Part shown: positions 12,414-56,161 of the stretch, one piece after another
Layout: each line of letters starts with the position of its first letter
How positions within the stretch are numbered: position 1 is the stretch's first letter
NCBI GenBank assembly: GCA_963281255.1
Contig: OY725499.1
Span: 1,744,096-1,808,095, forward strand
Source of the DNA: Aphrocallistes beatrix
Lineage: Eukaryota; Porifera; Hexactinellida; Sceptrulophora; Aphrocallistidae
Reading direction: 5' to 3'
Length of the DNA stretch: 64,000 nucleotides
Position numbers and translations under genes: made by a program
Notes under the pieces: generated by a model
What the model was told of the DNA's origin: nothing
Database searches by the model: none
Seen by the model: the letters and a program-made list of their open reading frames with translations, nothing else

Positions 12414-12885
12414 CAAGCGCGCTTCGCTTGCTTGCGCTGCAGGCTGGCGGAAACTGTGTCCGCCGGAGGCTCCCTTCGGTCGCCTGGGGTCATATTGGTT
12501 AATTATAAGGGAGATAGCATTCTAAATACGTCTGTCCTACTGTTATAATCGATATCGCACGAAAAATCACTAAATTTATCAATTTTTTTAATTTTTGTAT
12601 GTGGAGTAATGATGACGTCATAACAAAGTGATGAGTCATCATTTTTTGATGATAGTTGTGCCATATGTGAAATATATTAATATACATAATCTAATAAAGT
12701 TTCAGCCTTCTATCTCCTATAATGGCTGAGTTATGGTCGAATAACTGTATTGCTTTACTTTTAAAAATGTGACAATGACGTCATAATTCCATGATGCGTC
12801 GACATTTTCGTTTGAGCTCAGAACTTAGTGGAGCCATAGCCAAAAAGCTTTCTGCGCCCGGCAGTTTCTTCAATCAATTCGTTAC

Positions 12886-12916
<31 letters not shown>

Positions 12917-12944
12917 TATATGAATCGAGTTTTAATAGTAAGGA
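12414..12944 (-). mobile_element. Family A (Helitron-like) element, near full length
   Basis: On the minus strand it runs from TCCTTACTATTAAAACTCG (end at 12944) through a TA tract (12887-12920) and core to a GC-rich 3' end. The 3' end has two hairpins: GGCGGACAC-type arms, then CAAGCG-AAGCG-CGCTTG at the very terminus. On the plus strand it is preceded by A (12413) and followed by T (12945), with no duplicated target. Length 531 bp, non-coding. Confidence 0.85.
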
Positions 12945-13299
12945 TGTATCTGCACCCTTGGCATGTGCTACGTACTATGGAATTAGAACATTGTATACTT
13001 TGAGGCATTTTGCACATGCAGTACGTCACGGTTTGACATTCTACCTAAGCTTTTTTCACTGTATTTAACTGTTCATTATCTAATAAAGTTAAGACCTCTA
13101 TATAATGCACTACCGTAGTATTGAAACATGATAATAGTGAAGTAAACTTGCTGAATTCAAGAACTAATTTATTAATAATTTTTATTTATTTAGTCAACTT
13201 CAGCATGCTGTAGAGGTCCGAAATGTGTGACTATATCCTATTGGAAGTCCAGAGTGTGTGATTGCCTCATTACTCTTATAAGTATATTGTTCCCTTATG
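12945..13299. other. Unassigned DNA
   Basis: About 350 bp between the family A copy and the minisatellite. No supported feature. Confidence 0.35.
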
Positions 13300-13338
13300 A
13301 CGTCTCAGGTCAAGTCTGTTTCTCAAGCTAAGTCAAGC

Positions 13339-14391
13339 CATAGCCTACTCTAATAATGCCTCACAGTAGATTGAAAATTATGGACTAGGGATGAAGTAGT
13401 AGCCGAATGGATTAATACACGATTAGCCTAAAATCGTTAACAATGCAGAATAGGCATTAAGAATGTATTATCAGCATATATAAACATGGTATCAAAGTAC
13501 ATATATCCTTGGAAAAATTTCGAATAGTCATCACATCTTGGCGCAACAAGTCATTCTAAGGACAATTTTAGACATTTTCTAAGCTGTATTAACCCTATTT
13601 CTAAATTGTATTAAGGAGTGATTTTTGTGTAGAACCAAGATTAGTACGAGTTGATTTGAGAAATTTAGACTTTTTCAACGGAATGTTGTTACATTCCTGG
13701 ATTGCTATGGTAAACATTTTGATCAGTTTGGGCCATCTTGTGCAAACTGTAGTAACTATATCTTCAAATTTGATCGTTTTTGATAGGCAATTGACTACTT
13801 CCTATTAAGTGATATTACAACTTGAACTAAATTCAATGAGTTTTGAGTTATTGGTTGATTTTAAGAATGTGACCAAAACACTAAATTGTCGCATAACTCT
13901 ATAGTCTGTGATTTTAGAAGTTTAAATTGTATTATTACCTAATAGGAAGTAGCCAATTGCTTATCAAATACGATCAAATTTGAAGACCTAGCTCTTACAG
14001 TTTGCAGGAAATGGCTCAAACTGATCAAAATGCTTTACCATAGCAACGTAGGAATGTAACAACATTCCATTGAAAAATTTTTAAACAACTCGTACTAATC
14101 TTAGTTCTACACAAAAAATATACCTTAATAACATTTAGAAGTAGGCTTAAAACAGCTTAGAAAATTGCCAAAATCGTGCATAAAATAACCTATTGCGCAA
14201 TGATATGATGACTAATCGAAATTTTGACAATGGATATATGTACTCTGATGTCATGTTTATATATGCTGGTAATACATTCTTAATGCCTATCCTACATGTT
14301 TAACGATTTTAGGCTAATCGTGTATTAATCTACTCGGCTATTACCGCATCCTTGGTTATTTTACTGTGAGGCATTATTAGAGTAGGCTATG
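13339..14391. mobile_element. Family B foldback element B2
   Basis: A 1,053-bp palindromic element with arms of about 520 bp. It begins CATAGCCTACTCTAATAATG and ends with the complement, TTATTAGAGTAGGCTATG. GTCAAGC is duplicated exactly at 13332-13338 and 14392-14398. It shares the terminal design and central layout of B1 but is clearly diverged from it, so these are two subfamilies. No coding sequence. Confidence 0.88.
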
Positions 14392-14470
14392 GTCAAGCCT
14401 ATCTCAAGCTAAGCCAAGTCTGTCTCATGCTAAGTCAATTCTGTCTCTCAAGCTAAGCGAAGTAAAAGTA

Positions 14471-14863
14471 CAATGGAACCTATATATATCGGCTACCCAA
14501 GGGACTGGACAAAATTGGCCGTTATACACAGGTGACCGTTATATACAGGTGGTTGTCTTAATCCCTAAAAGGTATCAACATAGTGCAATAAAAGTTTTTA
14601 GAAATCCATTACATGAAGTAATTACATTAAACTTGTTTACTGTTCGTAATAGGTCCTGTAATAAACATAAAAAGGTGATGGCCGTTATAGACAGGTAATG
14701 GCTGCTATACACAGTTTTAGGGTCAGTAAGGGACTATAAACTGGTGGCCGCTGGCCGCGTTGAGCAGGTGACCGCTATACACAAGTTCAATATTATGGAA
14801 TTTCGGACGGGACTGTTCATTGGTGATCGTTATATAGAGTGGCCGTTATAGCAGGTTCGACTG
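14471..14863. mobile_element. Tigger/pogo-like MITE
   Basis: 393 bp flanked by TA (14469-14470, 14864-14865). The right end is CAGTCGAACCTGCTATAACG when complemented. The left end (CAATGGAACCTATATATATC) matches more weakly. The interior repeats GGCCGTTATA/CAGGTGACCG motifs typical of this MITE style. A partial copy is at 50396-50657. Confidence 0.65.
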
Positions 14864-14915
14864 TAAATCTCTCAAGCTAAATCGAGCCTATCTCTCAAAC
14901 TAAGTCAAGCCATAG

Positions 14916-15333
14916 TTTGCCATTAAAAAGTAGAAGTCCGTCTCATTAGTATTTCTCGAAATCCAATGTTTATTTTGTACTAATGAGCCTAATATTTAGA
15001 TTATGTCATCTTTGTTTTCTCCGAAATAGAAATAATTACAAAGATCAAATATGTCTTGACAATTAATGGTCATATTTGTGAGTGGGGTCACTTAAATTGA
15101 TTAATTAATCATAATAACGTAAATAGGATGAATGCATCTTTTAATATACTAAGCAATCCCTGGTCAAAAAAAAATAGTGACTACCATTGCCTTATGTATA
15201 GAATGCTTTGCCTTTATATGGTATAAATCAACGAAAAATTCTAATCTCAGGAATTTTGAGTGTGTAGTCATCTTTTCAATGGCTGTCGTGTTTATAATAA
15301 ATTGATCTTATGGAGAGACCGATTTTGGTATTA
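14916..15333. other. Unassigned DNA between minisatellite and mariner
   Basis: Contains the right arm of family H (about 15140-15210). Otherwise no recognised feature. Confidence 0.35.
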
Positions 15334-16670: not shown

Positions 16671-16787
16671 TATTTATAATGCAAAGCAATATGGTGTTCG
16701 AATACTTTTAACCAGGTAGTTTAGTTAAAAACTAATAGTTAAGCACTAAAATAATAAAAAGGAATTTTTCACGAATCCCTTAGTTTG

Positions 16788-17530
16788 CATGCGCTGCGCG
16801 GCTGGCGGACACTTTAAGTCCACCAGAGGCGTCCTTCGAACGCCTAGGCTCAATTTGATTAATTATAAGGAAGATAACATTTCTAAATACATCGGTCTTA
16901 CTGTTATGATCGATATCACTCGAAAAATCACCAAATTTGTCAATTTTTCAATTTTTGCTGCGTAATGACGATCAATACACAGTGATGAGTCATCATTTTT
17001 AATCAGAGTTGTGTCATATTTCTGAAAAAGAGTTGAATCATATTTGTGAAATATTAGTATGCACATTCTGTTAAAGTATCATCCTTCCTATCACCTAAAA
17101 TGGCTGAGTTATGGTCGTAAAACTGAAATTTCTATTTCTAAAATGGTGACAATGACGTCATAATTCCATGAGGTCAGAGATTAGTGGAGCCATAGCCAAA
17201 AGGACTCCCTAATGCCTAAAGTCAGCTTCTGTGCCTTGTTTCTTAAATCATATACACAACGCATAGAATGCTGATTTTTTGGCATGTGGGAGTCTGCACA
17301 ATTCTATACGCACACATTTCTATTAAAATTTCAGCCTTCTATCACCTAAAATGAGTTCTAGTCCAAAAACTGAAATTTATGAATACAAAAAAAGGTGACA
17401 ATGAAATCATAATTTTATAATGAGTCAACTTTTTCGTCTGAAGTCAGAACTTGGAACCATACCAAAAAGACTCACATAGCAAAAATCATCTTTCTGTCCC
17501 AGGCAGTTTCTTCAATTTTAACAGTAAGGA
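16788..17530 (-). mobile_element. Family A copies, truncated and partly duplicated
   Basis: It carries the GC-rich 3' region (GCTGCGCGGCTGGCGGACAC) but lacks the terminal CAAGCG hairpin end. Core motifs appear twice: TATCACCTAAAATG at about 17090 and 17342, and the GTGGGAGTC motif at 17284. The right end is a degraded 5' terminus (AACAGTAAGGA, ending 17530). It is probably two rearranged copies. Confidence 0.7.
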
Positions 17531-17829: not shown

Positions 17830-17830
17830 T

Positions 17831-18769: not shown

Positions 18770-18860
18770 TCCTTACTATTAAAACTCGATTATTCTATAT
18801 ATATAAATATATACTATATATATATATGTATACAAGCGCGCTTCGCTTGCTTGCGCTACG
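18770..18860. mobile_element. Two family A ends nested: 5' end (+) then 3' end (-)
   Basis: TCCTTACTATTAAAACTCG begins at 18770 after an A. After its TA tract, the 3' end of an oppositely oriented copy (CAAGCGCGCTTCGCTTGCTT) begins at 18833, again after an A. The inner copy breaks off at about 18860, where LINE sequence starts. Confidence 0.75.
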
Positions 18861-21800
18861 CTTCCCAAAAATATTTCTATCTCCTCACTCAGCTCGCACT
18901 ATCCTAGTATAAATACTAGTATCGAGTCAGCTGAACTTCCACTTGCGAATCCCAATTCTCCTCTTCTACCTACTCCACCACAACCACCAACCATTCCTCA
19001 ATATAGGCTTACACCCCTCCTCCCCCTCGCTCGCTGCCCTCACTCGGGGGGAGACAGGTGCTCTGCACTCTTCCTATTCTCCTATTCCTTCTTCCTATTC
19101 CTTCTCTACTTCCTCCTCATTCTTATTCTCATCTTTATCCTTCCATCTTGCCTAACACCATGCGTATTTCTTCGGGTCGAAATCCATCCAATCTTATTAC
19201 TATCAAGCCGATTAAATCTTCCCCGCGTGGTCATCCTCATCTTGTATCCTTCCATCTTCTCAACGCTCGGAATCTTAGGACTAAATCCTCTCGTTTTCTT
19301 GATTATGTATCTGACCACCATCCTGACGTTGTTGCCGTTACAGAGACCTGGTTCACGTCATGAGATGCGACGGTGAGAGTTGAATGCACTCCATCCGGCT
19401 ACCAACTCTTTGATCGTGCTAGGTCAGCACATCGTCAGGGTGGAGGCACTGCACTTCTCTGTCGTGATTCCTTCACACTGAAGTGCAATGCATCTGGTGA
19501 GGTATCATCTTTTGAGTTCTCGGATTGGACTCTTCTTCTGAAATCTCCCTTCGTTTATCCTAATTTATCGGCCTCCCTACTCAAGGAATCATCCTATTTC
19601 TATTTCTACCTTCCTTGATCAGTTTTCTTCCCTTCTCGACCCCATCCTCTTATGCAAGGAGCCCCTAATAATAACTGGTGAATTCAATATCCATGTTGAC
19701 ATCCCGTCTGAGTCTTTACAGTTCTCCGAGCTCCTTCGTTCTCTATCTTTGATCCAGCATGTGAATCAGCCAACTCATGATAAGGGTCACATTCTCGATC
19801 TGATAATATCCCGATCTGCTGACAACATCATCCTCTCTGATCCCTCTCCTGTCCATCTATTCTCTGACCATTTCTCCATCTCTTGTAGTCTCTCGCTTTC
19901 CAAACCTTCTCTTTCCTCTCAGGAGGTTACCTATCGTTCCAAATCCATCAACCTCCCAATCTTTCTTGTTGATCTCGCTTCCTCTGATCTCTGTGATAGC
20001 CCACCTGAGCATCTTGAGGAACTTATTGTATCATATAACAGCACCCTAGCCTCTATCTATGATCAGCACGCTCCTCGGCGGTCCAAAACCATAGTCATCC
20101 GTCCCCGTGTCCCTTGGTTCACCAGTAGCATCAAGCAGGTCAAGCGTGCGAGAAGGAAAGCTGAACGGAGGTGGCGCCAGTCTAATGACCCTGACCATTT
20201 GGCTGAATTCAAGCATCAGAGGAATCTTGACTGACCTGATGAACAGAAAACTTCGCAGTTTCTATTCTGATTGGATCAGTCAGTCCTGTCATGACCAGTG
20301 CTCACTCTTCCGTAAGGCTAACTCACTTCTCGGCTTACGCCAGCAACAGGTCCTACCACCTCATGCTGATAAGGCTGCTCTTTCTCAGGTACTCGCCAAC
20401 TTCTTTGTTCTTAAGGTAGATAACATGTGTTCCACCATTGATTCAAATACATCGTCGTCTTCCGTTACCCCCTCAGATTATTCAAACCTCGAATCCCAAC
20501 ATACTTTCCACCAATTCAAAAATTATCTGAGGAAGAAATTGTTTCCCTTGTTTCCTCTGCTCCTAATAAATCTTGCATCCTCGATCCTATGCCAACATCC
20601 TTGGTCAAATCATCTCTTCCCATCCTTACGAAAATCGTAAATGGTTCCTTCTCCCTGGAAGCGCGCCATCATCTTGCCCAAACTTAAAAAAACAAATCTT
20701 GATCCCATCTTCTTCAACTATCGTACACTTAGCAATCTTTCTTTCATTTCTAAGATCACTGAGAAGGCCGTTTTCATCCAGGTCGTGAATCATCTTACAT
20801 TACATCATCTCTTCCCCGGGACGCAGTCTGCCTATCGTAAACACCACAGTATGGACACTGCGCTCCTGAAGGTCACAAACGACATTCTACTCAGAATGAA
20901 TCGCCAACCGTATCTCTTCTGGTTCTTCTTGATCTTAGCTCAGCCTTCGACACCGTCGACCATACCATCTTACTCAACCGTCTCCAGTCTCATTTCGGCA
21001 TTTGCGGCTCTCCTCTGTCTTGGTTTGAATCTTACCTCTCTGATAGGACTCAATTCGTCTTGATAAAGGGTTCTGATTCCTCCAATATCCCGGTCCAACA
21101 CGGAGTTCCTCTGGGTTCTTGTCTTGGTCCGCTTCTCTTTAGCCTCTATACTAGTAGTCCTCTATTCGACCTTATTAGGCCCCACCTCCCCGACATGCAC
21201 TGCTATGCCGACGATACTCAGGTCTATCTTTCTTTTATACCCGGTTCCATCTCTTCTGAAGATTCTGCTTTTTCCGCCATCCAATCTTGCATCTCCGCGA
21301 TCCGTTCCTAGCTCTTCACCGACAAGTTGCTTATCAATGACACCAAGACTGAGTTCCTTATAATAGGGACTCGTCAAAAACTATCTAAGATTCAAACTGA
21401 TAGCATCTCTGTTGGTGAGTCGAGAATCTCTTCCTCCAAAGAAATACGGAATCTCGGAACTTGGCTCGACAATACCCTCTCAATGTCTACTCAGGTCAGC
21501 AAAGTTTCCTCCTCCTGCTTCTACTATATCTATAACATCCGGCGTATTAGAAAGTATCTCTCTAGGGAAGTCTGTGAAACTCTTGTTAATTCTCTTATCA
21601 CATCTCGTCTTGATTACTGTAACAGCCGCTTGTATGGTTGCCCCTCATCCCTCTTAGCTCGACTACAGCGAGTCCAGAACAGTGCAGCCAGGCTTATCTA
21701 CAATGTCTCTCGTACCTTTTCGTCATCTCCTCTTCTTATTAACCTCCACTGGCTGCCTGTTAAACATCGCATCCTCTTCAAAATTCTCCTCATAACTTAC

Positions 21801-22090
21801 AAAGCCATCCATTCTCTTGCTCCGGACTATATCATCCAGCTCATACAGGTCAAGTCATCCAATCGTACTCTACGATCATCCAACGCCATCCTCCTTGAAC
21901 AGCCTACTATCAAATCTTCCAAAACTCTGGGTGATCGTGCATTCACTTTTGCAGCGCCTGTTGAGTGGAATCTTCTCCCTCCGAGCATTCGGAATGCCCC
22001 CTCACTTCTTCTCTTCAAAAAGTCCTGAAAACTCTTTATTTTTTCTGTATCGCGCACGATACATCCACTTAAATAAATACTCAGTAAATT
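18861..22090 (+). mobile_element. L2/CR1-type LINE (non-LTR retrotransposon), degenerate
   Basis: It is a GC-richer block than its surroundings. It has a C/T-rich 5' region, endonuclease and reverse transcriptase remnants in order, and an A-rich 3' end (AAATAAATACTCAGTAAAT). It starts inside the 3' hairpin region of a family A copy. Exact boundaries are approximate. Confidence 0.85.
19140..22070 (+). pseudogene. LINE polyprotein: AP endonuclease plus reverse transcriptase, many frameshifts
   Basis: Blocks in order: endonuclease start (FHLLNARNLRTKSS, VVAVTETWF) at about 19250-19360. ITGEFNIH follows near 19670, where the usual GDFN Asp is Glu, then SDHFSISCS near 19870. Reverse transcriptase blocks are FRTLSNLSFISKITEK-like near 20720, [17 protein letters not shown] near 20820, a [12 protein letters not shown]-like block near 20940 and [12 protein letters not shown] near 21110. 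The catalytic box CYADDTQVY is at 21201-21227 (YADD codons 21204-21215). The conserved C-terminal segment (LHWLPVKHRILFKILLITYK, GDRAFTFAAP) is near 21750-21960. Block order and the C-terminal signature fit the CR1/L2 group. At least five frame changes and a stop (SVPS*) make it non-functional. Confidence 0.88.
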
Positions 22091-22119
22091 AATTTCAGTG
22101 CAAATACATACCTTACAAG

Positions 22120-22331
22120 CAGGGTTTCATCCAGCTTTCCAAAGTCATATGCCTAAATGGACGCCACCATTTTCTACGCGCCTAGACTCTGCATTTTTAA
22201 ATATGTTTTATGCCACTCGCCAAAGTTGGCGTATGTCGCGCGCCTAGCCCCAAAAATCATACGCTTAATTATGATCCATGGGATCAAATACGCGCATCTA
22301 GTCGCGCCCACTACGCCTGGATGAAAGCCTG
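22120..22331. mobile_element. hAT-like MITE with perfect 8-bp target duplication
   Basis: 212 bp with ends CAGGGTTTCATCCAG and CTGGATGAAAGCCTG. CTTACAAG is exactly duplicated at 22112-22119 and 22332-22339. The 8-bp duplication and CAGGG start are classic hAT features. GC-rich interior; no coding sequence. Confidence 0.9.
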
Positions 22332-22347
22332 CTTACAAGCATACATA

Positions 22348-22828
22348 CACTAAGCGGACAAAAGTATTTCAACACCTGATTCTTTCCCATACAAATAATA
22401 CTAATCGGATTTTTCTATGAAGGGCAATACGTTCAAATTCAAAGAGATACTAAAAATCTGATTTCAGATTCGAAATCTACACATTCGAATTAGTCATAGT
22501 TGAACATAACTAATAAATTACTCAACTCAATGAACAATCTTATCAGCCTGAGCCACCATAGGTATGTATTTCATTGTCATCATGTGTAGTGGTCAAAATG
22601 GGTGTATGTGGCATAAGGTGGCACTGATTGATAATTACAAAAAGTTAGAACGAATGATCAGTTAGAAAAATTAACCTGTAACTAATTCGAATGCATATTA
22701 TTCGAATCTGGAATCCGATTAGCTGTATCCCATACCGTTTAGAAGTAACCCTCTTCATGAATAGACCCATTTTAGTATTATTTGTATGGGAAAGAATCAA
22801 GTGTTGAAATACTTTTGTCCGCTTAGTG
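22348..22828. mobile_element. Family K Tc1-like foldback MITE
   Basis: 481 bp, ends CACTAAGCGGACAAAAGTAT in inverted orientation, TA on both sides (22346-22347, 22829-22830). The arms are long inverted repeats containing CAACACTTGATTCTTTCCCA-type sequence. The CGGACAAAAGTATTT motif is a typical Tc1 end. Related copies are at 54434, 55138 and 57425. Confidence 0.85.
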
Positions 22829-22945
22829 TACATACATATGCATAGATACACACAAATACGTACATGCATAACAGACACTAACTTTTATTGAATTGTACAA
22901 CGCACTTGAACATATTAATATGGAATCTGCGCTATATAAATGTAT

Positions 22946-22970
22946 ATTATTATTATTATTATTATTTATA
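22946..22970. repeat. (ATT)n microsatellite
   Basis: Eight to nine perfect ATT units. Confidence 0.9.
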
Positions 22971-22984
22971 TGGTATGTTCCAAG

Positions 22985-23220
22985 ATTTATTTTGAGTGGA
23001 GTGGGGTATACCATTAGATGTGCTAGCTAAAAACGAAAATATCTGATATTGAGGCGCTGTATCTCAAAAACTAGACATGAGAATCAATAACAGTCTGGAA
23101 TCCACAAGTATTTCTAAAATGAGACACGTTCCACGCTTAACATAATATATAGCTCTCTTTTTATCATATCCTGTACGCCAAGTCGACAGATTCTTCCGGA
23201 CGGTATCCTTTGAATATTTA
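22985..23220 (+). mobile_element. Family D right-end fragment
   Basis: It resembles 6125-6347 of D1: GATGTGCTAGCTAAAAACGA, TCTCAAAAACTAGACATGAGA, CACGCTTAACAT, and a decayed end CCGGACGGTATCC. Confidence 0.6.
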
Positions 23221-23278
23221 GGCAATTTTTCAGAGCTCAAATGCCCTTACTTTGCCTATATTTCAAATTTATTTTTAA

Positions 23279-23383
23279 CCTAAGACTACCGAAATGTACC
23301 ACAGTGGTACAGCCTTATGGCTTCCTTCCCATTGAAAATGGCTAGAGACATCCGCGATATCGCGAGTTTTCGATAATCTAGGG
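23279..23383. mobile_element. Short piggyBac-like MITE candidate
   Basis: It is bounded by TTAA (23275-23278 and 23384-23387) with ends CCTAAGAC and CTAGGG. The interior includes ACCACAGTGGT and GATATCGCGAG palindromes. It shares CCCATTGAAAATGGCT with 28327-28444, which supports a common family. Confidence 0.4.
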
Positions 23384-23387
23384 TTAA

Positions 23388-24660
23388 AGCCACTTTAACG
23401 CAGATTAACTATTTATAAATTGATGAATTTGTACACAAATAACTGAAGTTTATGCCAAAGCATTTTAATTCAAAATTATCATTTAGTAAGATAATTAAAA
23501 CATTACTTCTAATATTTCAATCAAGTAGAGTAGGGTTAGCCTACAGGGTGATCAAAAGTTCTCCAACAATAGATTTACTTCATTGATTTGAATAAGATAA
23601 TTTTTTAAAATTTAGATCGGGTTAAGTGTCAAGTTCGAAAATAACTATTTTCTCCTGATTATATTATAATATTTATATCTTCCAATATTCAGTTACTAAT
23701 TCATAATACTGAAATTTGACGATTTTTTGTTTTATTTTCCGGTAATTATTAATAAGAACAACAATTGTTGAGATATAGTAAAATACAGACAATTGTGTTG
23801 CAAAATTTGAAAAATAATCCTTATAATTTTCAAGAAAAACGAAATGTCGGGTGTTAGATCCACTTGTGTAACAATAATACATCAGCAAAAATTTTGCAGG
23901 ATCACTTTGTAATATCGAGTCGTATTTGCTCCCAATTTGCTTGGTAATAGGCGAACTTGCAATATGGGAACGAAATTAACATTATAAGCATAGCTGGAAC
24001 TTGTTGGTATGTTGTTAATAGACAATTCTCACTATTAGAGCGATTGCTAATATGCAAATTCCTGCATTATAACCAAAACTATAGAATAATGCTAGTTATT
24101 TGGTTTATTATAAGCATTATGTTTCAGCGATTATTCATTTTAAAATTCGAAATCACCATAGAATATTTGAGTATTTTAAGAATACCATTACTTCCTTCAA
24201 GTTTCAATTCCATATTCTTTTTTTTGTTTGAGTTTTTATTGTGTTTAATTTTGTTATAAATGTATGTAGTATATAGTTATCCCCTTAGAATATTACTCTG
24301 TGAACAGGCATCCTCAAAATACAGTTATCTATCTATATATTTGCGACTGAGCGTCACCCCATAACTACTTTGTAAATTTGAGTTATGATAAAAGCGGTGC
24401 ATGGCATTGTTTCACGAGACATGTAGAAACAGTATTCAAACATATATTTAATCCATAAAAGTAGATATTTTGGAAATTTTAAATAATATTGATTTGCTTC
24501 ACATATATATTATAATTTACTACCCATTGGGGCCAATTCCCTTTAACCACAACAGCTACTGAAAAATGCATCAAAGTCGAAATCTACACACTCGAATTAC
24601 TCACTTTAGAAACTTTATTAATCATTGTTTTAAGGAGTGGCTTGATTTGGCTCGAATGTT
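23388..24660. other. Unassigned AT-rich DNA, 1.27 kb
   Basis: Short frames at 23673-23888 and 23957-24259 encode Phe/Ile/Leu-rich peptides with no family features. I see no exon signals or repeats that I can support. Confidence 0.35.
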
Positions 24661-27844: not shown

Positions 27845-28203
27845 CAAGCGCGATCCCTTGCTGGCGGCCAATTTGTGCCGACCAGAGTCGCGTTTTGAGC
27901 GCTAGGAACACATTGATTAAATAAATGGTAGATAACATCTCAAAATACGTCTGTCTTACTGTTTTAATCGATATCACTCGAAAATCGGCAAATTTTCCAA
28001 TTTTTCAACTTTTCAATTTCAAGTTATTGTGGAAAATCTGAATTATCTAATTATAAAAAGGTGACAATGACGTCATAATTCCATGATGAGTCGACATTTT
28101 CTTCTGAGGTCAGGAGTTATTGGAGCCATAGCCAAAAGATTCTCACATGCCAAAAATCAGCTTCCTGTGTCTGGCAGTTTCTTCATTTTATTCGATATAT
28201 TTC
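27845..28203 (-). mobile_element. Family A copy, 5' truncated
   Basis: The 3' end CAAGCGCG begins after an A (27844). GC-rich region, core (AATCGATATCACTCGAAAAT, CAATGACGTCATAATTCCAT) and CAGTTTCTTCA are present. The TA tract and 5' terminus are lost. Confidence 0.75.
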
Positions 28204-28326
28204 TATATATTTGTCCGGGTTTGGCTTATTTTTGTAAAATCCTTGCTTCTGATATTAAAATAAAGTTAATAAACTTATTTTTTTGAAATTAGGACTGGTA
28301 TTATCTCAGCTATTGATACATTTTAA

Positions 28327-30416: not shown

Positions 30417-30822
30417 CAAGTGCGCTCCACGTGCTTGCGCTGTGCAGCTAGCTGACACTTTGTGTCCGCATGAGGAGCCCTTTGTGCACCTAGGCTTACA
30501 TTGATTAATTATAAGGTAGATAACATCTCTAAACAAGTCAGTCTTAATGTTATAATCAATATCACTAAAAAATCATAAAATTTGTCAATTTTTGATGCGT
30601 AATGATGACGTCATAACAGTGTGATGAATCATCATTTTTTGATGATAGTTGTATCATATATGTGATAAATTTCAGCCTACTATCACTTAAAATGAATGAG
30701 AGAGCTATAGTCGAAAAACTGGACTTTCTAATTATAAAAAAGGTGACAATGACGTAATATTCCATGATGAGTCGAGATTTTGTCTGAGGTCAGAACTTAG
30801 TGCTGCCATAGCCAAAATGCTG
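30417..30822 (-). mobile_element. Family A copy, 5' truncated
   Basis: The 3' end CAAGTGCGC follows an A (30416). Decayed GC hairpins are followed by the core with TGATGACGTCATAACAG. It ends near CCATAGCCAAAATG. Confidence 0.75.
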
Positions 30823-31733: not shown

Positions 31734-32295
31734 CAAGCGCGCTTCGCTTGCTTGTGCTGCGCGGCTGGCGGACACTTTGTGTCCGCCGGAGGCTCCCTTC
31801 GGTCGCCTGAGGTCACATTGGTTAATTATAATGGAGATAGCATCTATAAATATGTCCATCTTAGGGTTAAAATCGATATCACTGAAAAAATCACCAAATT
31901 TGTCAATTTTAAAATTTTTGATGTGTAATGATGACGTCATAACAGAGTGATGAGTCATCATTTTTTGATGATAGTTGCATCATATTTGAGATATGTTAGT
32001 ATACAAATTCTATTTAAATTTCAGCCTTCTATCTCCTATAATCGCTGAGTTATACTCGGATAACTGTGTTGCTTAACTTTTAAAAATGTGACAATGACGT
32101 CATAATTCCATGATGAGTCGACATTTCACTCTGAGCTCAGAACTTACTGGAGCCATATCCAAAAGACTCCCACATGCCAAAAATTAGCTTTCTATGACCG
32201 GCAGTTTCTTCAATCAATTCGTTACAGAGATATATATATATATATATATAGTAGATAGATATATATACACATTAATCGAGTTTTAATAGTAAGGA
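31734..32295 (-). mobile_element. Family A element, full length
   Basis: 562 bp with both ends: 3' CAAGCGCGCTTCGCTTGCTT after A (31733), and 5' terminus AATCGAGTTTTAATAGTAAGGA-type ending at 32295 before T. The TA tract is at 32231-32280. A good reference copy. Confidence 0.9.
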
Positions 32296-33525: not shown

Positions 33526-34020
33526 ATTATTTTGTGTTTACAATAAATTCATAAAGTGAATAAATTTAAAATGGAATAATTAAAATGAAAAATATTTAGC
33601 ACCCATAGAAGATTCTGAATTTGATTGCATTCTCAAGAGCCTGCAGGGCGACTCTGTGAACACTAAGTACTCGCTAGCTGCGCTATTCAAGTGCCGATAT
33701 TAAATTTTAAAATTAAATACAAATACAAATACGTGTTTAAAACCCAAGCCTGGCTAACTGATCTGTAGATTTCAAAAGAGGATTGATTTTACCTTAAATT
33801 AATTAACAACTGATGTAATATAAAAAATGAAAAATATACGTAGGTACATAAAATCGATAGTTGCATCACAATAATCATTTCATTATGACGAACTTGTTAC
33901 TGATCAAAATTCGAAAAACTAATAGAAAATACATACTACATTTTTCCAAATAAATGTTGAAGTTTTTAGTTGGCATTAACATGTTCTACGCCCAATGTAG
34001 TAAAATATAGTAATGAGCAA
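33526..34020. other. Unassigned DNA, 0.5 kb
   Basis: AT-rich, no supported feature. A small GC patch near 33640 resembles part of family A's GC-rich end (GCAGGGCGACTCTGTG). Confidence 0.35.
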
Positions 34021-34616
34021 AGATTTTTTGATGATAGTTGTATTCTATGCGAAGAATATTATATAGACATTCCATTACAATTTTAGTCTTCTATCATCTA
34101 AATTGTTGAGTTATAGCAGAAAAACGAAATTTCTAATTATAAAAAAGGTTACAATGACAACATAATTCAATGATGAGACGAGATTTTCATCTGAGGGCAG
34201 AAATTAGTAGAGCCATAGCCAAAAGACTCCCACATGCCAAAAATCAGCTTTCAATGCCTGGCAGTTTAATCAATCAATTCAATACAGATACATATGTATA
34301 TAGTATATACAAGCGCTTCGCTTGCTTGTGCTGCAGGGCTGGCGGACATTTTGTGGGCACCTGGGATCACATTGATTAATTATAAGGGAGATAACATCTC
34401 TAAATACGTCTGTCCTAATGTTATAATGGACATCGCACGAAAAATCACCAAATTTGTCAATTTTTACAATTAAGGTTATAATTAAGCAATGTAAGCCCAG
34501 GTGCCCAAAGGGCGAGTCCGGACGACTCAGTGTCTACCTGCCGCGCAGCGCTAGCAAGCGAAATGCGCTTGTATTTATTTAAATTCACCACATTAATCGC
34601 GTTTTAATAGAAAGGA
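34021..34616 (-). mobile_element. Family A copy with another family A foldback inside its TA tract
   Basis: The core (34021-34285) lacks the 3' GC end. The 5' terminus (ATTAATCGCGTTTTAATAG, ending AAGGA at 34616) is present. Between them, inside the TA tract, lies an A-derived foldback at 34310-34571. Confidence 0.75.
34310..34571. mobile_element. Family A foldback: two 3' ends facing outward
   Basis: It begins with a minus-strand 3' end (CAAGCGCTTCGCTTGCTTG after A at 34309) and ends with a plus-strand 3' end (GCAAGCGAAATGCGCTTG before T at 34572). The middle contains the inverted pair TTGATTAATTATAAGG / GGTTATAATTAAGCAA. It is a deletion or inversion derivative. Confidence 0.7.
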
Positions 34617-34800: not shown

Positions 34801-35325
34801 TCCTTACTATTAAAACTCGATTATTGTATATTTATATATATATATATCTGTAACGAATTGATTGAAGAAACTGTAGGACGCAGAAGGCTGATTTTTGGCA
34901 TGTGGGAGTCTTTTGGCTATGGCTCCAGTAAGTTCTGAGCTCAGACCAAAATGTCGACTCATCATGGAATTATGACGTCATTGTCACATTTTTAAAAGTT
35001 AAGCAACACAGTTATTCGGGCATAACTCAGCCATTATAGGAGATAGAAGGCTGAAATTTTAATAGAATCTGTATCCTAACACGTCTCACATATGATGCAA
35101 CTATCATCAAAAAATGATGACTCATCACTTTGCTATGACGTCATCGTTACTCATCAAAATTTTACAAATTGACAAATTTGGTGTTTTTTCGAGTGATATC
35201 GATTTTAAAACTAAGATGGACATATTTAGAGATGATATATCCCGTTTAATTAACCAATGTCACCTCCAGGCGACCGAAGGGAGCCTCCGGTGGACACGAA
35301 GTGTTCGCCAGCCGCGCAGCGCTTG
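34801..35325 (+). mobile_element. Family A element, full length
   Basis: 525 bp from TCCTTACTATTAAAACTCG (after A 34800), through a TA tract, ACGAATTGATTGAAGAAACT, GATGACTCATCA and TTCGAGTGATATCG, to the end GCAGCGCTTG before T (35326). The terminal CAAGCG arm is partly lost. Confidence 0.88.
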
Positions 35326-43968: not shown

Positions 43969-44877
43969 TCCTTACTATTAAAACTCGATTAATGTTATTT
44001 ATTCAATTATTTATATATTTATATATACAAGCGGGCTTCGCTTGCTTGCGCTGCGCGGCTGGCGGACACTTTATGTCCGCCGGAGGCTCCCTTCGGTCGC
44101 CTGAGGTCACATTGGTTAATTATAAGGGAGATAGCATCTATAAATATGTCCATCGTAGTGTTAAAATCGATATCACTCAAAAAATCACCAATTTTGTTAA
44201 TTTTAAAATTTTTGATGTGTAATGATGACGTCATAACAGAGTGATGAGTCGTCATTTTTTGATGATAGTTGCACTATATGTGAGGTATGTTAGTATACAG
44301 ATTATATTAAAATTTCAGCTTTCTATCTCCTATAATGGCTGAGTTATGCTCGAATGTGTTGCTTGTGTTGCTTAGCTTTTAAAAATGTGACAAACGTCAT
44401 AATTCCATGATTTTCGTTTGAGCTCAGAATTTACTGGAGCCATAGCCAAAAGACTCCCACATGCCAAAAATTAGCTTTCTATGACCAGCAGTTTCTTCAA
44501 TCAATTCGCTACAGATATATATACACATTAATCGAGTTTTAATAGTAAGGATATATATATATATATATATATATATGTAACGAATTGATTGAAGAAACTG
44601 CCAGTCACAGAAAGCTGATTTTTGGCATGTGGGAGTTTTTTGGCTATGGCTTTGGAAGTTTTGAGCTCAGACGAAAATATCGAATCATCATGAAATTATG
44701 ACGTCATTGTCACATTTTTAATAGTTAAACAATACAGTTATTCGAGCATAACTCAGCCATTATAGGAGATAGAAGACTGAAATTTCAAGAGAATCTGTAT
44801 ATTAATATACCACACATATGATGCGATTATCAACAAAAAATGATGACTCATCACTCTGTGCAAGCGAAGCGCGCTTG
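43969..44877 (+). mobile_element. Family A copy inserted in D2 (outer copy, internally deleted)
   Basis: It starts TCCTTACTATTAAAACTCG after A (43968) and ends CAAGCGAAGCGCGCTTG before T (44878). Without the nested copy it is 385 bp, having lost most of the GC-rich interior. Joining the two flanks gives AACCAAATA-TTTACGTAAA, which matches uninterrupted D1 (complement of 5657-5680, one substitution). The insertion therefore added no target duplication. Confidence 0.9.
44028..44551 (-). mobile_element. Family A copy nested in the TA tract of another A copy
   Basis: 524 bp, complete: 3' end CAAGCGGGCTTCGCTTGCTT at 44028 after A, 5' end at 44551 before T. The TA tract of the outer copy continues directly on both sides. 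Confidence 0.9.
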
Positions 44878-46165: not shown

Positions 46166-46237
46166 GTACCCGCAGGGCGACTCTGTGGATACGCAGTGTC
46201 AGCAAGCCGCGGAGCGCAAATAAGCGAAGCGCGTTTG
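46166..46237 (+). mobile_element. Family A 3'-end fragment in the TA tract of the next copy
   Basis: It contains GCAGGGCGACTCTGTG, a decayed GCCGCGGAGCGC region and the end TAAGCGAAGCGCGTTTG at 46237, followed by T and a TA tract. Confidence 0.7.
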
Positions 46238-46673
46238 TATATATATATATATATATCTGTAACGAATTGATTGAAGAAACTGCCAGGCAAAGAAAGCTGA
46301 TTAGTCGAAAATGTAGACTGGAATTATGACGTCATTGTCACCTTTTTATAATTTGAACATCAGTTTTTCGACTATAACTCAGCAATTTTAGGTGATATAA
46401 GCCTGAAATTTTAATAGAATGTGTACACTAATATATCTCACATATGATACAACTATTATCAAAATGATGACTTAACACTCTGTTATGACGTCATCATGAC
46501 GCAACAAAGTTTTAATACTTTTGGTGATTTTTCGTGCGATATCGATTGTAGCTCTAGGACAGACATAGTTAGAAATGTTATCTCCCTTATAATTAATCGA
46601 TCTGACCCCAGGCGCCTCTGGCGGACACAAAGGGCCCGGCAGCCGTACAGCGCAAGCAAGCGAAGCGCGCTTG
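46238..46673 (+). mobile_element. Family A copy, 5' terminus missing
   Basis: TA tract, TAACGAATTGATTGAAGAAA, core with ATTATGACGTCATTGTCACC, and the 3' end GCAAGCGAAGCGCGCTTG at 46673 before T. The 5' TCCTT end was lost where the upstream fragment sits. Confidence 0.8.
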
Positions 46674-50075: not shown

Positions 50076-50395
50076 TCCTTATTATTAAAACTCAATTAAT
50101 GTTTATATAGATTCGCTTGCTTGCGCTGCGCGACTGGCGGACTTTGTCCACCGGAAGCGTTAATATTGATTGATTTTAAGGTAGATAACATCTCTAAATA
50201 CGTCTGTCTTAGAGTTATAATCGATATCACTCGAAAAATAACAAAATTCGCCAATTTTTCTGCGTAATGATGGTATCATAAGTGATTCATCAGTTTTCTA
50301 TGGGAGTCGTATATTTGAGATATAATACTAATATACACATTTTATTAAAATTTCAACCTTCTATCACTTAAAATGACTGAGTTATGGACGCTTGA
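50076..50395. mobile_element. Family A 5' end (+) with a nested, truncated minus copy
   Basis: TCCTTATTATTAAAACTCAA begins after A (50075). The GC end of a minus-strand copy (TTCGCTTGCTTGCGCTGCGC) follows at about 50111 and its core runs to 50395, where a Tigger-like fragment starts. Confidence 0.7.
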
Positions 50396-51024: not shown

Positions 51025-51250
51025 CAAGCGCGCTTCGCTTGCTTGTGCTGCACGACTGGCGGACATTTTGTGTCTGCCGGAGGCGGCCTTTGGGCGCCTG
51101 GGCTCACATTAATTAATTTTAAGGGAGATAACATCTATAAATATCTTACGGCTATACGTAATGATGACGTCATAATAGTGATGTCATCATTTTTTGATGA
51201 TAGTAGTATCACATGTGAATAATATTAATATACACATTCTCTTTAAATTT
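51025..51250 (-). mobile_element. Family A copy, 5' truncated
   Basis: CAAGCGCGCTTCGCTTGCTT follows A (51024). The core is shortened (AATGATGACGTCATAATAG) and stops at ACATTCTCTTTAAATT. Confidence 0.75.
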
Positions 51251-51275: not shown

Positions 51276-51838
51276 CAGGGTTGAAACCGAATAGTTGATT
51301 ATTCGGTTTAACCAAATATTATTTGCAAATAATTGATATTTGGTTTGTAACCAAATATCATTATTTGGTATTCGGTTGAGAACCAAATAATTTGGTCAAC
51401 CGAATAATTTGGTCAACCGAATAATTTGGTCAACCGAATATTTGGTCAACCAAATAATTTGGTCAACCGAATAATTTGGTCAACCAAATATTTGGTCAAC
51501 CGAATAATTTGGTCAAACAAATAATTTGCATGCTTTCCCAATACAATCACACGTTCTTACATGAGGTGGTCCGAACACAAATAAATCTAATAGGCTTACT
51601 TATACTTGATTATATTTTTGTATAAATATTTATATAATATATAAAAATTTATGCAAAAAGTATTATTTGGTTGACCAAATTATTCGGTTTAACCATTATT
51701 CGGTTAACCAAATTATTTGGTCTGACCATTATTCGGTTAACCAAATTATTCGGTTTGACCATTATTCGGTTAACCAAATTATTTGGTCTGACCATTATTC
51801 GGTTAAAATGGTATTTGGTCGAAGCGGTTTCAACCTTG
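51276..51838. mobile_element. hAT-like foldback MITE made of tandem repeats
   Basis: The ends are CAGGGTTGAAACCG and CGGTTTCAACCTTG in a TA tract. The left arm is an array of about nine 17-bp units (GGTCAACCGAATAATTT) at 51375-51520. The right arm is an array of about four 34-bp units (CCAAATTATTCGGT and GACCATTATTCGGTTAA). Frames reading through it encode only the repeat. ATATATAT on both sides would fit an 8-bp duplication but is uninformative in a TA tract. Confidence 0.75.
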
Positions 51839-52034: not shown

Positions 52035-53395
52035 CAGTGTGTTCGGAAATTATTGAGACTAAATATAATTATCTTAAACTATTCGTTGGTGAAGTATGGC
52101 TCTTAGCTACGCTTAAATTAAGTTAATATACATGTCCTTAAACGAAATTCAAAATTGAATCCTGACTACTTTAATAATTAATCTTTTTTCCCTTATTTTT
52201 CAAACAAAGCTGAATTCTTTTTGGCATTGAACTGCAAAAAGGCCGGAGAAATTCTGGATCAAAGGACTCCCAAATCTCCCGTATAGACTCTTTTAGTTGG
52301 TCTATGGTTTTAGGATGTCGTACAAGTAGCCTTCTCTTCAAAACCGCCCAAAGATTTTCGATTGGGGCAAGGTCTGGACTATTTGGTGGCCAATCGATTC
52401 GAAGGGGGACAAACTCTGCTTTCCACCCCTTGGCTGCCTTGCCAGTGTGTACAGGACTGTTGTCTTCCTGTAAAACCCAACTTTCTCCGTATTTCCCTTT
52501 AGCCTCCTCAATAAGACACTCGCTAAGAGTGGAAATGTACACAGCTTGATTAAAGTTTTCGGTAAAAATTTTAAGATGTGTGGTCCCCATAAGCGAAATC
52601 CCACCCCATAGATGAACTTTAGAAGGATGTTTGAAAGTCGGCAGAATAATTGGCTGCCCATTCTTCGTCCACACATTAACCCTTCCGGAATCAAGCAAAA
52701 CTGAGCACTCGTCAGTAAAGAATGTTTTGCTCCAGTCAAAGCCTTTCATTTCCTTACACCATGCGATTCTTTTGGAGACATGGAGGTCAGTGAGAGCTGG
52801 GACTCGGACAGCACGTGTGTTCAGGAAGTTATGCCTCATTACCTGGGCATGGAGGGTGCTGATGGATACATTCACTCCTAACTTTGGTAGAATGGAACGT
52901 AATGAAGTCCTCGGATTGCAATTTAGAATGGAGGCAATTCTTTTTTTGTCATTTCCCTGGATTTTAGTTGGGCGTCCAGCTCCTTTCTTATGCTGGAGGG
53001 GTTTTTTCTCTCTGATAAGGGATAAGACACGAAAAACAGTCGGCTTGGGAATGTTCGTCCGCCTAGAGATTTCCATTCCTCTGGTAATTCCAGCGTTATA
53101 CAAGGTTTCTATTTGATTTCTGCGTTGTTGTTGTGTAGAAAACATCGATGCAGTACCGAATAATTCAAATTGAAAATGAAAATCGGGTAGTAAAATATTT
53201 GTTAAAAAAAAGATTTTGTTTGTTTTGTCAATGAAATTTTTTTGATAGTGGATATCTTAAATCTGTGATGAATTATCTAGTCTAGCCAAGTCTAGCTATT
53301 CAATAACACTGATGGTTATATAATATGTGCTTGTACTAGGAATATATTGCTAATTGAAGGCAATTCGAAGAAGTCTCAATAATTTCCGAACACTG
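52035..53395 (-). mobile_element. Complete Tc1 element, apparently intact
   Basis: 1,361 bp. Ends are CAGTGTGTTCGGAAATTATT and, complemented on the right, CAGTGTTCGGAAATTATTGA, with TA at 52033-52034 and 53396-53397. The ends differ by a 2-bp indel. It contains an uninterrupted transposase gene. Confidence 0.92.
52171..53145 (-). CDS. Tc1-family transposase, intact (DD34E)
   Basis: 324 aa, uninterrupted. It cuts and pastes its own element at TA sites. The N-terminal paired helix-turn-helix DNA-binding region covers about residues 1-110, with a GRPR-like GAGRPT linker at 55-60 and a basic KKGAGR stretch that could serve as nuclear signal. The DDE domain has Asp145 (TDECS), WGGIS at 180-184, Asp228 (QEDNS) and Glu263 (PIENLW). 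Exactly 34 residues lie between the last two, the Tc1 signature. The start is the first ATG and fits the usual Tc1 N-terminus. Frames on the opposite strand are shadows. The copy could be functional or recently active; this is inferred from the open frame and near-intact ends only. Confidence 0.93.
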   Translation of the reverse strand: MFSTQQQRRNQIETLYNAGITRGMEISRRTNIPKPTVFRVLSLIREKKPLQHKKGAGRPTKIQGNDKKRIASILNCNPRTSLRSILPKLGVNVSISTLHAQVMRHNFLNTRAVRVPALTDLHVSKRIAWCKEMKGFDWSKTFFTDECSVLLDSGRVNVWTKNGQPIILPTFKHPSKVHLWGGISLMGTTHLKIFTENFNQAVYISTLSECLIEEAKGKYGESWVLQEDNSPVHTGKAAKGWKAEFVPLRIDWPPNSPDLAPIENLWAVLKRRLLVRHPKTIDQLKESIREIWESFDPEFLRPFCSSMPKRIQLCLKNKGKKINY

Positions 53396-53514: not shown

Positions 53515-53736
53515 CTAAGTTGACTAATTCATGAATTACTCAAAATTTGAAATTAAAATAATGAAAAAAAATTTGATATTTCGTTAGGGACTGAGCAATG
53601 TTAGAGGTATATAACATGAGCAACCTTATAACCACTTTTGGGCATAAAATCTGCACTGATGTTTGAGATTTTGAATAATTCATTAATTGAATAATTCAGA
53701 ATTCTTCATCATCTTTCAATGAATTAGTCAACTTAG
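53515..53736. mobile_element. Family I hAT-like MITE, 8-bp target duplication
   Basis: 222 bp, ends CTAAGTTGACTAATTCATGA and ATGAATTAGTCAACTTAG. ATATAAAC is exactly duplicated at 53507-53514 and 53737-53744. The unoccupied counterpart in F2 (near 63757-63770) has a single ATCTAAAC. Non-coding. Confidence 0.9.
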
Positions 53737-53863
53737 ATATAAACATCTTATACATTTGAAGACTCTAGAATGATCATTTGAAAAGCAGTGGGCCCTGATT
53801 GTCGCTTCGTGCCAGGACACATTTTTTCCTCATAAAAATCACCATACAAAACACAGTTCCAGG

Positions 53864-54240
53864 GGCCTTATTCACTAAGAAAACTTAAGATTTGCTTAAC
53901 TTTTGAATCTTAAAAATTAGAAGAGATTTTTAAAGAATTCAAATAGATTGCATACTCTATTAATTTTAAGTGGTACAATTGAAATGCTTGACAAATTTTG
54001 ACTCATTTGTTAAACTTTTCAGAAAGTTACGTAATATTTTAAGTTAAGTATGACGTCATAATACTTAAGTATGACACAACGAATATTTCGAGAGTGACTT
54101 GGAATATTTCCAGTCTTTAGGTAGTTTATATTTCTATTGGTATCATTGAACATATAGTATTTACCCAAATCGTAATGCAACTCTTCAAAATTTCCACTAT
54201 ATAAAGTTAAGCAAATCTAAATTTTCTTAGTGAACAAGGC
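53864..54240. mobile_element. J1 MITE, Harbinger-like ends, TCCAGG on both sides
   Basis: 377 bp. Ends are GGCCTTATTCACTAAGAAAA and, complemented on the right, GCCTTGTTCACTAAGAAAAT. TCCAGG flanks it at 53858-53863 and 54241-54246; F2 has a single TTCCTGG at this site (near 63930). The ends resemble the HARBI1-containing element at 60826, hence the tentative family. A 5-6 bp duplication is longer than Harbinger's usual 3 bp. Confidence 0.8.
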
Positions 54241-54433
54241 TCCAGGTCTTAGACTCTAAAGATCTTTTAAAATCATTGAAAATATTCGAATTACAATCTC
54301 TAGGCCATAATAACTAAGATTATTTGAGTATAAGAAATTTTATACCTAATGAAGCTTGTCACAGAATTCATTAGTCACACTGTATAATAGAGCTTGGCTT
54401 ACCAGCAGTTGTCAGTTATTTTTCTATATTATT

Positions 54434-54600
54434 CACCATCCGGACAAAATAATATGAACACTTCATTCTTTTTTATTCAAATAGTACTAAATTGAATCTT
54501 TTCATGAAGGGGGAATACGTTCAAATTCTAAGAAATACTAAAAATCGATTTCAGGTTCGAAATTTACGCATTGGAATTAATCATTGTTGAACAGCAGCCT
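54434..54600 (+). mobile_element. Family K end fragment
   Basis: CACCATCCGGACAAAATAAT, then TCATGAAGGGGGAATACGTT and GAAATACTAAAAATCGATTT. This matches one arm of family K (22348, 57425). Confidence 0.65.
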
Positions 54601-54869
54601 GCTTCACAATTATTGAGAATATTAGAAAATTGGTAGCAGCTCCTCATTTGTAGATTTGAAATTAATATTGATACGTATATTGAATCTAGCAAGTGATTAT
54701 ATTTCTATTCGATTTTATCAAATTAATTTCTAATTTGGCAAAAATTCATGTATTTCTTTTGAGAAAAAATGTGAATTACTGACTTTTGTATTTTATTTTT
54801 TGAAATTCTATAACCTATATATCTTGATCTTTTTCACCATATTTTGTTAAAACATTAGTGAATTCAATC

Positions 54870-55090
54870 CGAACATCCACAATAAGTCAAGAAGAGACTA
54901 GAAAACGGATTAAAACTTTGTTTAATGCTGGTGTGCAGAATGCAGCTGAGATTATTCGAGAAACCAAACTACCTTATTAAGCGGAGTCGACTGTATTCCA
55001 AAATTATACTGGTTTTAGACTGAGCCAGCAATTCTCCATATCTAGTTTGTCCCATAAAAAAACTGGAATCAATAAAGTCTATGGCATTCA
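54870..55090 (+). pseudogene. Tc1-like transposase N-terminal fragment
   Basis: The frame reads ETRKRIKTLFNAGVQNAAEI, then IRETKLPY and a stop, then ESTVFQN. This parallels the start of the intact transposase (RRNQIETLYNAGITRGMEIS, RRTNIPKPTVFRV). Only the first helix-turn-helix is left. Broken by a stop, and by a frameshift after it. Confidence 0.6.
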
Positions 55091-55101
55091 AAGGTTAGTT
55101 A

Positions 55102-55633
55102 TCCTTACTATTAAAACTCGATTAATGTGTATATATACAGTACCCGGACAAAGGTATTTGCACACTTCATTATCTCACGTTGATTTAATACTAAAATGGG
55201 TCTATTTATGAAGATTAAAACTCCGAAACGCTAAGTGATACAACTAATTGGGATTCAGATTCGAAATCTTCACATTCGAATTAGTTATTGTAGGATATTT
55301 ATAATCAATTAATAATTCCCAATGTTTTCAAATTATCAATCACTGCCACTTTGGGCCACATATGTCCCTTTTTATCACTATACATGATGGTGATGTACTA
55401 CCCTCTGTGCCACAGGTTGATAATTCTACTCATTGGGTTGAACAATTTATTAGAAATCTTCAAATATTACTAATTCGAATGTGAAGATTTCGAATCTGAA
55501 TCCCAATTAGTTGTATCACTTAGCGTTTCGGAGTTTTAATCTTCATAAATAGACCCATTTTAGTAATAAATCAACGTGAGATAATGAAGTGTGCAAATAA
55601 TTTTGTCCGGGTACTGTATATATATATGTGTGC

Positions 55634-55675
<42 letters not shown>

Positions 55676-56161
55676 GTAACGAATTGATTGAAGAAACTGC
55701 CAGGCGTAGAAAGCTGATTTTTGGCATGTGGGAGTCTTTTGGCTATGGCTCCAGTAAGTTCTGAGTTCAGAGCAAAATGTCGAACCATCATGGAATTATG
55801 ACGTCATTGTCACATTATTAAAAGTTAAGCAACACAGTTATTCGGGCATAACTCAGCCATTATAGATAGCAGGCTGAAATTTTAATAGAATCAGTATACT
55901 AGCACGCCTCACATATGATGCAACTATCAACAAAAAATGATGATAACTTTGTAATGACGTCATCATTACTCATCAAAATTTTAAAAATTGACAAATTTGG
56001 TGTTTTTTCGAGTGATATCGATTTTAAAACTAAGATGGACATATTTAGAGGTGATATCTCCCTTATAATTAACCAATCTCACCTCTACGCGATCAAAGGG
56101 AGCCTCAGGCGGACACGAAGTGTCGGCCTGCCGCGCAGCGCAAGCAAGCGAAGCGCGCTTG
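55102..56161 (+). mobile_element. Family A element with family K MITE in its TA tract
   Basis: The 5' end TCCTTACTATTAAAACTCG follows A (55101). The 3' end CAAGCGAAGCGCGCTTG stops at 56161 before T. Removing the nested MITE leaves 579 bp plus one TA. The core contains AATTATGACGTCATTGTCAC and TTCGAGTGATATCGATTTT. Confidence 0.88.
55138..55616. mobile_element. Family K Tc1-like foldback MITE K3
   Basis: 479 bp, ends CAGTACCCGGACAAAGGTAT and, complemented, CAGTACCCGGACAAAATTAT. TA at 55136-55137 and 55617-55618. Long palindromic arms (TTATCTCACGTTGATTTA). Inserted into the TA tract of a family A copy. Confidence 0.9.

Follow-up and report, generated by a model that had tools for sequence, protein, structure and literature searches.

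A stretch of 64,000 nucleotides of the glass sponge Aphrocallistes beatrix (contig OY725499.1, referred to below as the window; C13 among our contigs) carries many copies of a short, non-autonomous repeat, family A, and raises the question of which class of transposons this repeat belongs to and which enzyme could move it. Helitrons are transposons thought to copy themselves by rolling-circle replication. An earlier note, made from the window alone, had described family A as a Helitron-related repeat with an unusual 3′ end, CTTG. We followed up this description in the window and in the genome (100.5 Mb in 28 contigs). With a probability of about 0.93, family A consists of non-autonomous derivatives of a Helraiser-like Helitron, and a 9.5-kb relative within this genome is the likely source of its enzyme.

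In the window, the family-A 5′ motif (up to 3 mismatches) was found at 9 places, compared with a chance mean of 0.04, and the 3′ motif at 10 places, compared with 0.01. All nine 5′ motifs were preceded by A and all ten 3′ motifs were followed by T. A search with the Basic Local Alignment Search Tool (BLAST), using the complete copy 31734-32295 as query, returned 21 segments, in line with the earlier count of 17 or more copies, whether full, partial or nested. These data confirm the observation of family A as a real repeat.

The existence of a Rep/helicase protein between the same ends was the check proposed in the earlier note, and its outcome was positive. The domain Helitron_like_N (PF14214) had 106 matches in the genome, and approximately 20 kb was read around each of 10 of them. 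One of these loci, C2:3994039-4003543, holds an element of 9.5 kb whose 5′ end TCCTTACTATTAAAACTCG and 3′ end CAAGCGAAGCGCGCTTG match those of family A exactly. It is flanked by A and T (aca/TCCTT...CTTG/tga), and its single open frame spans 1,959 codons from one stop to the next. The 5′ end of a second A-type copy, on C3, is damaged. Five loci (C2b, C7, C11, C4 and C2c) form a sister lineage, B, with 5′ ends like TCTTATATATTAAAACTC and the 3′ end CAAGCGAAGCGCACTTG in four of the five, two letters being different in C2c; the frame is open in C2b (1,970 codons) and C7 (1,947). Between A and B, the proteins are 57% identical, the coding parts approximately 71% and the last 120 nt 85%. At the loci C2d, C20 and C1 the letters read contain no 3′ end oriented like the Rep frame, and the C1 stretch includes 3,785 N.

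An HUH/Y2 Rep and a PIF1-type helicase are joined in one protein between the ends, a feature of the Helitron superfamily. In the lineage A frame, Pfam identified STPRs (4.4e-18), Helitron_like_N (3.4e-60), PIF1 (2.1e-74) and a PIF1 2B domain; an OTU-like domain was below the cut-off in A (20.6 vs 23.3 bits) and above it in B (29.8 bits). The bat Helitron Helraiser (7lcc) scored best in the PDB against each of three pieces searched: the N-terminal (315 bits) and the remaining piece of A (697 bits), and the larger of the B pieces (910 bits). Residues 175-1646 (of 1,959) of A align with nearly all of Helraiser. The HUH motif (GLPHAHIL), both tyrosines, the Walker lysine and the arginine finger are present in these alignments, and all of them are needed in Helraiser (PMC4778049). 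Helraiser and Helibat (7LCC, PMC4778049) also share with family A the 5′ TC, the insertion between A and T without duplication and the combination of HUH with two tyrosines. The partner differs from Helraiser in its N-terminal STPR repeats and its C-terminal OTU-like domain. The STPR repeats, of 23 residues, lie ahead of the Rep domain in the N-terminal part of the C2 partner (L033:7724-9880), and this part also matches the FMBP-1 domain 5d23 in the PDB (6.8e-6). In lineage B, Pfam did not detect STPR within the N-terminal piece, and a literature search limited to one library found no paper containing both STPR and Helitron. No relatives of the Rep-helicase were found in viral contigs.

Genome-wide, a count that allowed up to 2 mismatches gave 6,413 5′ motifs and 9,031 3′ motifs; the backward patterns of both motifs, used as a control, had 2 and 2 matches. 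A preceded 3,908 of the 4,095 exact 5′ motifs (another letter in 187) and T followed 4,439 of the 4,519 exact 3′ motifs (another letter in 80), against a background of approximately 31% for A or T at the flank. Within 316 kb in 28 stretches, A was found before 31 of 33 5′ ends and T after 44 of 48 3′ ends. Both 5′ exceptions were preceded by C, and one of them lies where a 3′ end directly adjoins a 5′ end.

For an empty-site test, the flanks of 25 paired ends (two of which belong to a single L001 copy that has alternative 5′ ends) were joined and compared with the 316 kb. For several joins, a related empty site runs across the junction, and in the clearest cases A is joined to T with nothing lost or duplicated. 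These cases include the 9.9-kb C11 element (window 5608-5800, C1 and C4), with point differences at the join in two comparisons. Empty sites for the window copy 43969-44877 were found at window 5567-5773, on C4 and on C1, again with an A/T join. The C2b element has a clear A/T empty site in C2a; its comparison with C1 shows 3 additional letters at the join. Among the 21 alignments shown, 31706, J_C3 17233, J_C4, J_C2d and 51057 align poorly or with gaps on one flank, and alignments in (TA)n are ambiguous; both groups prove less. The longest match between the two flanks was 0 nt in 14 of the 25 joined sites, 1-4 nt in 10 and 8 nt in 1. Family A is inserted between A and T without target-site duplication, as had been proposed, and the consistent target duplications that would have spoken against a Helitron appeared neither in the joined flanks nor at the empty sites. 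The 5′ TC together with A/T insertion is a feature of Helitron1, and the lack of a target-site duplication is one of the Helitron superfamily.

These results bear on the idea that family A is a cut-and-paste DNA transposon, that is, a miniature inverted-repeat transposable element (MITE), whose TC start arose by chance. Its high copy number and short length would suit a MITE, and a Tc1-type DDE gene is present in the window (52171-53145). There is, however, neither a duplication nor a terminal inverted repeat in family A, the Tc1 gene has inverted repeats of its own (52039-52081/53351-53393), and it is a Rep-helicase that sits between family-A ends, which leaves this explanation barely credible. 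The Tc1-type transposon itself occupies 52039-53393 of the window, with 43-nt inverted repeats around the DDE_3 transposase frame.

Several further observations concern the distribution of the ends. The 3′ motifs exceed the 5′ motifs genome-wide (9,031 vs 6,413), and by eye some 3′ ends of just about 17-45 nt stand on unlike sequence. At C1:1718064-1718303, eight exact 5′ ends follow each other in a row with a spacing of alternately 28 and 32 nt and a final step of 40; this array is a small satellite built from the transposon 5′ end. In L001, two 5′ ends are 38 nt apart. An apparent strand bias (nearly only the plus strand on C1 below 4.8 Mb) was rejected, as the places of a rarer pattern and of the exact motif in that region mix both strands.

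The 3′ end was examined without using CTTG as bait, by means of 57 upstream anchors in the 316 kb, dead terminators (see below) included. CTTG stood in register at 38 of them (36 before T) and within 3 nt of the register at 3 more, which agrees with the end assigned before. CTTG 3′ ends are already published and not new in themselves: HELPO2, a Helitron of the oyster mushroom Pleurotus ostreatus, has the same 3′ end and AT insertion (PMC4289320), and such ends also occur in some Helraiser insertions and maize Helitrons. HELPO2, likened here by description and not by sequence, differs in being fungal and in its described subterminal hairpin. Helraiser ends in CTAG and has a palindrome of 19 bp located 11 nt upstream of its end (PMC4778049), whereas family A ends in CTTG with GC-rich hairpins maybe 0-5 nt from the end. 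In Helitron1, the hairpin stands some 10-12 nt ahead of the 3′ end. The last 80 nt or so of family A fold into three GC-rich hairpins; just 2 of 300 and 0 of 300 mononucleotide shuffles folded as stably. A hairpin at the extreme terminus, as claimed in the earlier note, is possible in that CAAGCG can pair with CGCTTG, but the energy fold prefers another hairpin ending 2-5 nt before the end. Lineage B disrupts one pair of the extreme-terminal hairpin and none of the competing one. Covariation was analysed on 41 distinct 3′ ends; 43 of 48 reached at least 60% identity to the column consensus and the other 5 were dropped. Neither the extreme-terminal nor the H3 hairpin showed double changes in this set, and shuffles reached the observed conservation in 1000 of 1000 cases; the two upstream hairpins were weakly above shuffles (79 and 81 of 1000 reached the observed value). 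The terminal hairpin was therefore dropped as a proven structure, being conserved no better than in shuffles.

Since the partner aligns with nearly all of Helraiser (315 + 697 bits) and CTTG ends have been published, the data do not support the divergent or undescribed group that the earlier note had considered, and we file family A in the Helitron superfamily as Helraiser-like with a non-canonical 3′ end because it fails the CTRR rule. Its Helitron-related, non-autonomous nature was borne out by the Rep-helicase between the same ends and by insertion between A and T without duplication, and is as good as settled; the group is not new.

Another branch, Helitron2/Helentron, characterized by asymmetric terminal inverted repeats, a hairpin at either end, a TT target and often a C-terminal AP-endonuclease, has to be considered as well. 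DINE-1/HINE elements and Helentrons also include short non-autonomous copies in very high numbers, related to a Rep-helicase element and with a 3′ stem-loop (PMC4067079), Helitron2 and FoHeli combine a non-CTRR 3′ end with a Rep-helicase (PMC3627910, PMC5148889), and OTU domains occur in Helitron-type elements including those of the Helentron type. However, the subterminal inverted repeats, T-rich or TT targets and AP (apurinic/apyrimidinic)-endonuclease partner described for the former, and the asymmetric terminal inverted repeats and frequent 5′ hairpins described for the latter, were not found in family A. The inverted repeat between its first 30 and last 60 nt amounts to just 3-5 nt, which 75-200 of 200 shuffles equal, and 36 of 200 shuffles contain a match as good as the imperfect one of 13 nt that lies 126 nt from the end of A. 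Folds of the 5′ end (40 nt) have -0.5 kcal/mol at best, the target is A/T and not TT, Pfam found no AP-endonuclease domain in the frame, and the best solved relative, in a comparison via the PDB only, is Helraiser. Terminal or subterminal inverted repeats, 5′ hairpin, AP-endonuclease and TT target were accordingly rejected as features of family A, and membership of the Helitron2/Helentron branch is very unlikely.

Some observations weigh against a Helraiser-like Helitron moved by the 9.5-kb partner. CTRR, the 3′ feature of Helitron1, stood at none of the 57 anchors, and the hairpin nearest to the 3′ end lacks covariation support. Just one lineage-A partner with both exact ends was present among the 10 Rep loci read (of 106), so that lineage B could also move the short copies. 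Moreover, the first 511 bp of the partner (C2:3994039-3994549) correspond approximately to a whole short copy minus its last 14 or so letters. The large element thus harbours a small relative of itself, and short copies need not be simple deletions of the partner. With regard to a DDE partner, two window frames with transposase features were examined, one with its own inverted repeats, and no systematic search between family-A ends was made.

The ends, the insertion site, the lack of duplication, the partner with its domains and conserved catalytic residues, and the head-to-tail junctions described below were all observed here. By analogy with Helraiser, the enzyme would nick at the 5′ TC end, unwind the element and peel off one strand, stop at the GC-rich 3′ hairpin region and nick after CTTG. 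The freed strand would then be joined between the A and the T of a new site. We infer these biochemical steps, and likewise that the enzyme of the partner moves the short copies. A likely mover is thereby identified for a family whose 5′ ends number over 6,000 in a genome of 100 Mb and which searches based on CTRR would miss. The dense set of copies further allows head-to-tail junctions to be counted with control of orientation and the fate of terminators to be followed in autonomous copies.

Head-to-tail junctions of the form CTTG/TCCTTACTATTAAAACTCG occur 90 times exactly and 162 times with up to 2 mismatches in the genome, whereas approximately 0.9 exact junctions are expected by chance (calculated from the motif flank counts and an AT frequency of 0.0997). 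Exact head-to-head junctions were absent genome-wide (0 forward and 3 reverse matches, where a palindromic junction would match both strands). None was seen within the 316 kb either; mismatched ones were not counted genome-wide. Precise head-to-tail junctions are known from Helraiser and Helibat too, as are de novo 3′ ends formed by bypass (PMC4778049). A maize paper sets out two models for such pairs, a concatemer and an insertion at a resident 5′ end. In the single family-A pair within the 316 kb, 3 nt are lost at the join and the neighbours are 87.2% identical, which is rank 51 of 105 pairs (median 86.3%). In a lineage-B pair, a 9.5-kb element adjoins one of 0.6 kb. As the family-A neighbours are no closer than random copies and the lineage-B neighbours are unlike, these two pairs favour polar insertion over a concatemer.

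Random re-insertion at the A/T formed by the host A and the first T of a resident copy, with no polar or rolling-circle step, is the model proposed for the maize pair, and the same two pairs, with neighbours at rank 51 of 105 and of 9.5 and 0.6 kb, would also suit it. Because AT is palindromic, however, unoriented insertion at a resident 5′ end predicts head-to-head junctions as often as head-to-tail ones; with 0 exact junctions of the former kind and 90 of the latter, and approximately 0.9 expected by chance, the step looks polar. Nor is a preference for TCC the reason. CTTG/TCC occurs 103 times among 4,439; among the matches listed, 34 of 100 (hand count) lie outside the listed head-to-tail places, which is less than 1% of the 3′ ends, and CC follows 3.6% of AT in the 316 kb. 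Random re-insertion is hence an improbable origin of the head-to-tail pairs.

A terminator profile was built from 36 3′ ends, with large copies left out, and applied to the large copies whose 3′ end could be read, seven in all. In each of these Rep-bearing copies, a second terminator lies upstream of the active one. The gap between the dead and the active match is 23-66 nt (23 in C3, 66 in C2a, 48-51 in B), and both A copies have a third match behind the 5′ block. All nine extra matches end at profile position 66-76 of 80, before CTTG. Between the two A copies, the dead 3′ terminators agree to 88%, and the active ends of these copies resemble those of short copies (97% and 93% to 31734). At the join, the 3′ end of short-copy type is 151 nt long in C2a, 96 nt in C3 and 120 nt in B. 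The active ends are thus attached at three different points, which suggests that lost terminators were replaced repeatedly, probably in three separate events, by 3′ ends taken from short relatives. On this reading, an element whose terminator loses CTTG survives by using the end of a short relative as its own, and the active 3′ ends of large copies would be second-hand. Read-through plus deletion or a template switch are candidate routes for such a replacement. In bats, de novo 3′ ends are described for HelibatN subfamilies, some of them by insertion beside 5′-truncated Helitrons (PMC4778049).

Repeated replacement also meets objections. In C2a, the dead and the active end are 86% alike, little under the 88% between the dead ends of C2a and C3. 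A single replacement followed by deletions could also yield differing joins, and stronger constraint on the ends could explain part of the similarity between A and B. Tentatively, and with more doubt than confidence, we suggest that Helitron stop signals in this genome are disposable: autonomous lineages would repeatedly lose CTTG and take over the 3′ ends of the very abundant short copies mobilised by them, while resident 5′ ends would act as polar landing sites that give head-to-tail pairs of unlike elements. If true, the parasites of a parasite keep their host element mobile.

The copies in the window were delimited by motifs and BLAST, and the coordinates given before (12414-12944, 31734-32295, 34801-35325, 44877, 46673 and 55102-56161, with the strands listed here) were reproduced. 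Complete copies on the minus strand are 12414..12944 (531 bp, preceded by A and followed by T) and 31734..32295 (562 bp, the family query). The plus-strand copy 34801..35325 (525 bp; 5′ motif and BLAST) has a shortened 3′ end, ...CAGCGCTTG/T, which the 3′ motif missed, yet it also reads CTTG/T. Two copies proved more complex than described. Flank joins and BLAST showed that the copy ending at 44877 is the outer element (43969..44877, plus strand; 43969-44027 and 44552-44877), split by a complete inner copy on the minus strand (44028..44551) inserted into its (TA)n stretch. The complete plus-strand copy 55102..56161 contains, according to BLAST and repeat comparison, a MITE-like insert at about 55130-55624, whose inverted repeats of 181 nt are 94% identical.

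The remaining copies are incomplete. BLAST alone detected, on the minus strand, two partial copies within 16779..17516 (16779-17250 and 17318-17516; 72-75% identity to the query copy), partial copies at 27860..28210 and one including the 3′ part at 30417..30817. Motifs and BLAST together revealed a 5′ end fragment (plus strand, 18770-18832) with an inverted 3′ end (minus strand, 18833-18849) within its AT-rich stretch (18770..18849), and rearranged partial copies at 34009..34616 with a 3′ end at 34555-34571 (plus strand) and a 5′ end at 34598-34616 (minus strand). With the 3′ motif and BLAST, a 3′ end remnant (to 46237) was found to be followed by a copy without 5′ end (46238-46673) on the plus strand (46170..46673), and a partial minus-strand copy with complete 3′ end lies at 51025..51250. 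The 5′ motif and BLAST placed a 5′ end (plus strand, 50076-50094) next to an inverted partial copy (minus strand, 50112-50385) at 50076..50385.

Elsewhere in the window, the region 18833-24000, which starts beside a family-A 3′ end, is GC-richer and C-skewed. The frame 21327-22028 looks by eye like the end of the reverse transcriptase of a long interspersed nuclear element (LINE) and has no Pfam match; an Rfam search of the window gave no match. Two other frames presumably resemble UVSSA and PNUTS, which would suit an animal host. At 51381-51806, two tandem arrays of units of approximately 33 nt (AACCGAATAATTTGGTC-like) run in opposite sense and flank about 130 nt.

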